This document shows positions 46,060 through 47,984 of a stretch of 64,000 bases of DNA, piece after piece. A model generated the notes under the pieces. The model worked only from the letters and a program-made list of their open reading frames with translations. It was not told where the DNA came from and made no database searches. The position numbers and the translations under genes were made by a program. This DNA comes from Alphaproteobacteria bacterium (GTDB lineage Bacteria; Pseudomonadota; Alphaproteobacteria; Micavibrionales; Micavibrionaceae): NCBI GenBank assembly GCA_030750865.1, contig JASMHE010000008.1:434001-498000 (forward strand). The letters run 5' to 3'. The stretch's first letter is position 1, and every line of letters begins with the position of its first letter.

Positions 46060-46494
46060 ATGCTTGAGACAAGTGCCGAGAATCATACGATCAGAGAAAT
46101 GATCTATACGAAAACGACACATGATATCGAGATATCAGTCAAACCGGTTTTTCTCGAGGATCAATCCATGCCGGAGAAAAATTATTATGTGTGGTCGTAT
46201 CATGTCAAAATCCTGAACAACCGCAAAGACCCGATCCGGTTGCAAACACGATACTGGCAAATCACCGATGCAACAGGCGTTGTTCAGGAAATCGAAGGAG
46301 AAGGCGTTGTCGGCGAACAGCCCGTCATTCACGGCGGCTGCATGTATGAATATACAAGCGGCGCCCCGCTGAATACACCAAGCGGCATCATGGTCGGTAC
46401 ATATGAAATGCTGAACGATGATGACAGTGCGTTTAATGTCGAAATCCCTGCCTTCTCACTCGACAGCCCCCACCAATCTCACGTTTTGCACTGA
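46060..46494 (+). CDS. apaG: ApaG-family protein
   Basis: A 144-residue beta-sandwich protein. Typical ApaG segments are YYVWSYHVKILNN, LQTRYWQITDA, GEGVVGEQPVI and the end GIMVGTYEM. ApaG is annotated as affecting Co2+/Mg2+ efflux, but its biochemical role is unclear. The frame opens with a TTG at 46009; the first ATG is at 46060 and another at 46099. The stop codon is the first base of a hairpin before trkH. Confidence 0.92.
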   Translation: MLETSAENHTIREMIYTKTTHDIEISVKPVFLEDQSMPEKNYYVWSYHVKILNNRKDPIRLQTRYWQITDATGVVQEIEGEGVVGEQPVIHGGCMYEYTSGAPLNTPSGIMVGTYEMLNDDDSAFNVEIPAFSLDSPHQSHVLH

Positions 46495-46522
46495 AAGACG
46501 AAAAAAAACGCTTCACGTCTTT
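46494..46522 (+). terminator. Hairpin between apaG and trkH
   Basis: AAAGACG (46494-46500) pairs with CGTCTTT (46516-46522) around a 15-base A-rich loop. It starts at the apaG stop and ends one base before the GAGGGAG ribosome site of trkH. It could attenuate transcription or mask translation. The T tract is short. Confidence 0.5.
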
Positions 46523-46538
46523 TGAGGGAGTATAAGCC

Positions 46539-47984
46539 ATTCTAGACTTCAGGCCCATTATCCATGTTGTTGGTTTTCTTCTATGCGCCCTTGCGCTCAG
46601 CATGGCTGTACCGATGCTGGTCGACTTGTATTATGTGAACGCTGACTGGAAAGTATTTTTCTTCTGCGCTTTTGTCACCGCTTATTTTGGCGGCACAATG
46701 ATTTTTACGACATCCACCAAATCGATGGACCTGACACCCAAAAGCGGGTTCTTAATGATTTTCTGCTGCTGGATATTTCTCAGCATTTTCTCTGCGCTGC
46801 CCTTCTGGCTCTCTGAACTGGACATCTCCTTTTGCGATGCCTTTTTCGAATCTGTTTCCGGCCTGACGACCACCGGATCAACAGTTCTGGTCGGCTTGGA
46901 CACAATGCCCAAAGGCTTGCTGATATGGCGGGCGATCCTGCAATGGCTCGGCGGTATCGGGATCATCATCATGGCCTTTTCCGTTCTGCCGTTCCTGAAG
47001 GTTGGTGGTATGCAACTGTTCAAAACAGAGTTATCGGAAAGCGAAAAAGTCATTCCGCGCTCTGCTGATTTTGCAAAATCAATCGGCGGCATTTATTTCT
47101 TCCTGACTGTCACATGCGCGTTTTTCTATCATCAGACAGGTATCAACAGCTTTGATTCCATCGCCCTTGCCATGACAACTTTATCAACTGGTGGCTTTGC
47201 GAACACGGACGCATCATTTTCCAATTACACATCATACGGTCCGCTCATCGTCGCCAGCGTTTTTATGACATGTTCTGCGATCCCTTACATTTTGTATCTG
47301 AAGGTTCTTCACGGAAATACAACGGCTATATTTAAAGACCCGCAAGCCCGTCTTTTGCTGAAGATTTTAGCCGTGGCGATCACGCTGATTGCGCTCTTTC
47401 TGGTGTACGACAAAGGGTATGATCCTGACTGGTCTTTCGTGCACAGTATGTTTAACACCATATCGCTGATGACAGGCACAGGCTACTCCAGTACGAATTA
47501 CGGTATATGGGGGACATTCCCGATTATCATTCTGTTCTTCCTGATGGCAATGGGCGCAAGTGCGGGGTCAACCAGTTGCGGTATAAAGCTGTTCCGCTTT
47601 CAGGTTCTGGCCGCGATGGTTTTCTCACAAATCAAAAAGCTTTTATATCCAAACGGTGTTTTCATTCCCTATTACGCAGGCAAACCCATTTCAGATGAAA
47701 CATCCGCATCCGTGATGAGCTTCGTATCGCTGTATATTTTATGTTTTGTTCTGCTTGCGATTGCGCTCGCTTTTACCGGACTCGATTTTATAACGGCACT
47801 GTCCGGCGCCATGACAGCCATTTCAAACGTTGGTCCCGGCTTCGGTGACATTATCGGCCCTAGCGGCAACTTTAAACCGCTCTCAGATGCATCTAAATGG
47901 ATATTGGCCACAGGCATGCTCTTGGGCCGTTTGGAGCTTTTTGCGATCCTTGTGCTGGTCTCACCACATTTCTGGCGACGTTAA
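46539..47984 (+). CDS. trkH: TrkH-type potassium uptake channel, apparent ATT start
   Basis: A polytopic K+ transporter. The four pore loops are intact: SGLTTTGSTVL, TLSTGGFANTD, SLMTGTGYSST and ISNVGPGFGD. The first ATG (46602) would cut off the N-terminus: the 21 codons upstream encode ILDFRPIIHVVGFLLCALALS, which matches the start of TrkH proteins (FRP then the first helix). A TAA at 46533 closes the frame, and no ATG, GTG, TTG or CTG occurs before 46602. An ATT at 46539 lies 8 bases after GAGGGAG, so ATT initiation gives 481 residues, the usual length. A sequencing error (ATG read as ATT) is the alternative. Confidence 0.9.
   Translation: MLDFRPIIHVVGFLLCALALSMAVPMLVDLYYVNADWKVFFFCAFVTAYFGGTMIFTTSTKSMDLTPKSGFLMIFCCWIFLSIFSALPFWLSELDISFCDAFFESVSGLTTTGSTVLVGLDTMPKGLLIWRAILQWLGGIGIIIMAFSVLPFLKVGGMQLFKTELSESEKVIPRSADFAKSIGGIYFFLTVTCAFFYHQTGINSFDSIALAMTTLSTGGFANTDASFSNYTSYGPLIVASVFMTCSAIPYILYLKVLHGNTTAIFKDPQARLLLKILAVAITLIALFLVYDKGYDPDWSFVHSMFNTISLMTGTGYSSTNYGIWGTFPIIILFFLMAMGASAGSTSCGIKLFRFQVLAAMVFSQIKKLLYPNGVFIPYYAGKPISDETSASVMSFVSLYILCFVLLAIALAFTGLDFITALSGAMTAISNVGPGFGDIIGPSGNFKPLSDASKWILATGMLLGRLELFAILVLVSPHFWRR

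Follow-up and report, generated by a model that had tools for sequence, protein, structure and literature searches.

A trkH gene without a canonical start codon and a candidate AUU start in an alphaproteobacterium

Where does translation begin in a gene whose conserved N-terminus lies upstream of every canonical start codon in its frame? The question is raised by trkH in a 64,000-nt stretch (the window) of an alphaproteobacterial genome (2.19 Mb, 14 contigs). A preliminary description, made from the sequence alone, had placed the start at an ATT codon. We compared the locus with orthologues of the same family, with the other genes of the genome and with known non-canonical starts.

An intact trkH frame without a canonical start codon

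The coordinates in the preliminary description for GAGGGAG, the TAA, the ATT and the first ATG were right on a base-by-base check, as were the length of 481 residues and the gap of 8 bases between GAGGGAG and ATT 46539 (Table 1). After TAA 46533 the frame reads GCC (46536) ATT CTA GAC TTC AGG CCC, and it holds only GCC-ATT-CTA between this stop codon and the DFRP N-terminus. The same check, run from TAA 46533, bore out the claim that the frame contains no ATG, GTG, TTG or CTG before 46602. From ATT 46539 to the stop codon (TAA 47982-47984) there are 481 codons. The gene is intact and lacks a normal start codon at the place where its relatives carry theirs.

Table 1. Features at the trkH locus, in positions of the window
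Feature	Position	Strand	Basis
apaG, gene upstream of trkH, stop TGA 46492-46494	46060-46494	+	Pfam DUF525/ApaG, 107.7 bits
Weak hairpin AAAGACG...CGTCTTT in the apaG-trkH gap, probably incidental	46494-46522	+	-4.7 kcal/mol
GAGGGAG, Shine-Dalgarno (SD) site	46524-46530	+	GGAG match to the 16S 3' end
TAA closing the trkH frame upstream	46533-46535	+	base-by-base check
ATT, most likely trkH start codon	46539-46541	+	single AUH codon at a distance suited to the SD site
trkH coding sequence, 481 codons plus stop	46539-47984	+	Pfam TrkH, 163.2 bits; alignment with 4j9u and 3pjz
CTA, column of the ATG/TTG/CTG/GTG starts of orthologues	46542-46544	+	orthologue alignment
Conserved TrkH N-terminus (DFRP, first helix), 5' of the first ATG	46545-46601	+	identity to orthologues
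First in-frame ATG, internal Met	46602-46604	+	without SD match upstream

The product scored far above the Pfam TrkH cut-off of 27 bits, and its residues 4-481 aligned end to end with the two solved TrkH structures (E about 1e-88). The residues encoded before 46602 are therefore part of the conserved first helix, as the preliminary description had proposed. Solved TrkH aligns from its residue 2, which falls on the Asp after the CTA codon, and its Met1 corresponds to the CTA column. The window protein stayed below the NCBIfam curated cut-offs of the equivalog NF008020 (307 versus 866 bits) and the subfamily TIGR00933 (279.6 versus 331 bits); hence, we describe it as a TrkH-family protein that is not classed as an NF008020 equivalog. 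The genome also encodes a second TrkH paralogue (L002, G000:C8:131780-133204), which is 45% identical, has an ordinary ATG start and, unlike the window TrkH, scores above the cut-off of TIGR00933.

In the window, trkH is the second gene of an apaG-trkH pair, and apaG is also directly upstream in the sister genome and several relatives. The hairpin said to end just before the ribosome site is indeed present in the gap between the two genes, but 27 of 200 shuffled sequences folded as well, and we rejected it as a regulatory element because it was not significant against shuffled sequence. A search with Rfam identified no RNA element in the 64,000-nt window.

Conservation of the N-terminus bears on whether the codons upstream of the first ATG are still translated. 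Codons 2-21 have a mean residue identity of 57% to 29 orthologues, compared with 56% for the sister gene, and on average 6.9 of 15.9 differing codons are synonymous (68 rows compared). The whole gene is 56.5% identical to that of a relative (G003), where the median gene has 56.6%. Given this conservation and a divergence typical of the genome, any abandonment of the N-terminus would have to be recent. Mild caution is called for, as no other gene in the trkH tree has an end branch as long as that of the window gene. A start at ATG 46602 would leave out the 21 N-terminal codons and shorten the protein to 460 residues. This is the first canonical codon and the choice of an automatic caller, but it has no SD match upstream, most of the first helix would be removed, and in the conserved codons before it many of the changes are synonymous. 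We give this start hardly any credence.

To see how unusual the locus is, we compared the 749-kb contig that carries trkH with 761 kb of the relative G003 (384 shared genes), after filtering wrong-frame ORFs that overlap real genes, which made up most of the initial candidates for missing starts, from the lists of missing starts and split genes. Only two of the 384 genes, trkH and phoH, had at least 20 residues of conserved sequence 5' of the first ATG, GTG or TTG, and trkH alone had a conserved N-terminus (20 residues) upstream of every ATG, GTG, TTG and CTG. The first 72 codons of the phoH-like gene (G000:C8:188100-189134, minus strand) include no ATG, GTG or TTG, and its most likely start is a CTG after TAGGAG; with this codon and site present, we rejected it as a second gene with a missing start. 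Two genes of the relative that seemed to lack starts were set aside as well, one of them cut at the edge of the compared stretch and the other encoding release factor 2 (G003:C1:388395-389451, rel_390; own_3793 on G000:C8 in the source genome), whose open frame begins with GGIFD and no start codon. The frame in G003 is as expected for prfB, the gene of this factor, in which a known programmed frameshift conceals the start. There were no convincing split or frameshifted genes among the 384, suggesting that assembly noise is low.

The start column in orthologues

A protein search of 104 genomes of the family gave matches in 75, and we inspected the start regions of 67 trkH orthologues. All 67 have a canonical start codon. 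In 65 of them it aligns with CTA 46542 of the window (MDFRP or LDFRP) and not with ATT 46539; the codons in this column are ATG (40 orthologues), TTG (20), CTG (3) and GTG (2), and the sister genome (G001) has TTG. One orthologue (L086) starts one codon downstream of the column and another (L022) one codon upstream, with an ATG in the column of the ATT, the only relative of the 67 to do so. ATT, ATA or ATC occurs just upstream of the start in 5 of the 67 orthologues, evidently by chance. The comparison of starts in related genomes proposed in the preliminary description thus showed canonical starts throughout, and an ATG at the position of the ATT in a single case. AUU does not occur as a conserved start in relatives, and ATT 46539 was rejected as the conserved start column because the orthologue starts align with CTA 46542. 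The alignment indicates that the conserved start has been lost in the window gene, with CTA now in its place. CTA and TTG both encode Leu and are two synonymous changes apart, as expected if the codon became internal.

Weak start codons are frequent on trkH in this family. TTG, CTG or GTG is used by 25 of the 67 orthologues (among L003, L005-L032 and L064-L102), compared with 12 of 145 genes in the source genome and 16 of 145 in G003 (about 8-11%) when the baseline is taken from genes aligned from their start codon onwards (whole-gene alignments). Fisher p-values against the two baselines were about 1e-6 and 2e-5, for orthologues that are not independent of each other. A baseline that required SD support was dropped, since internal Leu codons inflate it. 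The excess suggests selection for weak initiation. It also suggests that weak start codons frequently hold down the translation of trkH in this family, and an AUU start would be the extreme of this habit.

Candidate start codons and competing explanations

The 3' region of the 16S rRNA of the source genome contains CTGGATCACCTCCTTT. In this genome, 219 genes whose ATG start is conserved show an enrichment of the SD signal at distances of about 4-11 nt. The GGAG core of GAGGGAG is 7 nt from ATT 46539, inside this range, and 10 nt from CTA 46542. The spacing of the ATT equals that of the ATA of infC in the same genome and is close to the 6 nt of the phoH CTG. Against the initiator anticodon AUU is mismatched at the third base only, whereas CUA is mismatched at positions 1 and 3. 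In vitro, the pairs that IF3 accepts in the first two codon positions are reported to be Watson-Crick pairs only, which favours AUU over CUA; AUU with the normal CAU anticodon is listed there among the weak combinations (PMC10158994). Initiation at CTA 46542 itself would make use of the ancestral start column, conserved in 65 of 67 orthologues, with an SD site 10 nt away that is still close enough to serve it; this distance is less usual than that of the ATT, however, and together with the mismatch at position 1 this makes the still weaker CUA a very unlikely start. AUU 46539 is the best start candidate left to trkH and most probably its start. The proposal of the ATT as start codon hence held as regards its spacing from the SD site and gave way as regards the conserved column, which is that of the CTA.

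We favour, with moderate confidence, a model in which the ancestral start was lost and AUU 46539 serves as a weak start, at low yield and limited by IF3. The lost codon would have been the one now replaced by CTA 46542, probably a UUG, and initiation would take place at the AUU just before it, with GAGGGAG as its guide. The predicted product, fMet-Leu-Asp-Phe-Arg-Pro... with 481 residues, would be made at low yield; IF3 would limit initiation as at other AUU starts and might in this way keep a potassium channel subunit scarce. The orthologue L022, which already starts one codon upstream of the conserved column, is consistent with this model. Against it stand the position of the ATT outside the conserved start column, the chance presence of such a codon before the start in 5 of the 67 orthologues, the TTG of the sister gene and the longest end branch. 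IF3-based regulation of trkH is possible. It is doubtful, though conceivable, that the potassium channel gene has shifted to AUU with K+ uptake set by IF3-dependent start discrimination, as the end of a trend of trkH in its family to weak UUG and CUG starts.

The sequence also admits an error in the assembly or consensus, with one wrong base hiding a true ATG at 46539 or CTG at 46542. A single substitution in a 14-contig assembly is enough, since ATT to ATG or CTA to CTG would give an ordinary start and such an error would look identical to a real AUU; drift of the old start to CTA would also be in keeping with a true ATG at 46539 such as that of L022. But without a convincing split or frameshifted gene, or a second gene lacking a start, among the 384, the error rate looks low, and we regard this explanation as unlikely. 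Genuine recent loss of the start would make trkH a pseudogene in the making with hardly any translation, its role being filled by the second TrkH paralogue. The ordinary ATG of that paralogue, which also counts against AUU use as loss of the window gene may be tolerated, agrees with this possibility, as do the long end branch and the TTG kept in the sister genome. Yet the frame is open over all 481 codons, a good SD site remains, divergence is typical of the genome and the N-terminus is as conserved as that of the sister, which leaves recent loss quite improbable.

Use of AUU at trkH would not be foreign to this lineage. The infC gene of the source genome (L063 on G000:C7, minus strand) most likely starts at an ATA, 8 codons after an ATG at L063:2061, with a strong SD site (AGGAGA) 7 nt upstream. 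Across the family, ATT, ATC or ATA stands at the corresponding place in most of the 30 infC loci compared. AUH starts hence appear to be usable in the source genome and its relatives.

Known non-canonical starts

AUH starts of infC are widespread and autoregulate IF3; the codon is AUC in Streptomyces and AUA in S. aureus. The trkH start would resemble them in combining an AUH codon with a good SD site, and the infC of the source genome shares its layout (ATA, 7 nt). In contrast to infC, where AUH starts are widespread and part of IF3 feedback, the AUU of trkH is found in one genome only and implies no such feedback. In E. coli the AUU start of infC is established (PMC9410913). The preliminary description had named infC as the known bacterial case, which is too narrow, as AUU starts are also reported for pcnB, cvfC1 and several genes of Nostoc. 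In S. aureus, cvfC1 starts at AUU and ccpN at AUA; at these two starts SD pairing guides initiation, and the yield is about 10% of that from AUG in poor medium (PMC13009471). In Nostoc, eight genes were revised to ATA or ATT starts (PMC8557916). These genes share with trkH a non-canonical AUH start, but theirs were detected by ribosome profiling or peptides and that of trkH is predicted from sequence; the starts of cvfC1 and ccpN are also conserved, whereas the AUU of trkH is lineage-specific. The sigR gene of Streptomyces has a GTC start that is repressed by IF3 (PMC5472188). It is similar in that a non-canonical start may serve to keep a protein scarce, and it differs in its codon and in having been tested genetically, with a known regulatory role.

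A search of the literature found no report of a non-AUG start of trkH. A comparison of close genomes identified one change from AUG to AUU in 61,358 ancestral AUG starts (PMC5622118), a rare but real event. Few genes are known from experiments to initiate at AUU, and automatic gene callers overlook such starts and truncate the N-termini. With its homology-anchored N-terminus, a clean SD site and no canonical alternative, trkH is a good test of AUU starts outside infC. A close parallel is pcnB of E. coli, for which an AUU start is attributed to Binns and Masters (2002) where PMC9410913 and PMC13009471 cite their work. There, too, AUU is found on a gene other than that of an initiation factor and is reported to limit expression, although it was shown experimentally, according to these citations, and is predicted for trkH. 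If confirmed, the AUU start of trkH would be a further member of the known AUU-initiated genes of the infC and pcnB kind.
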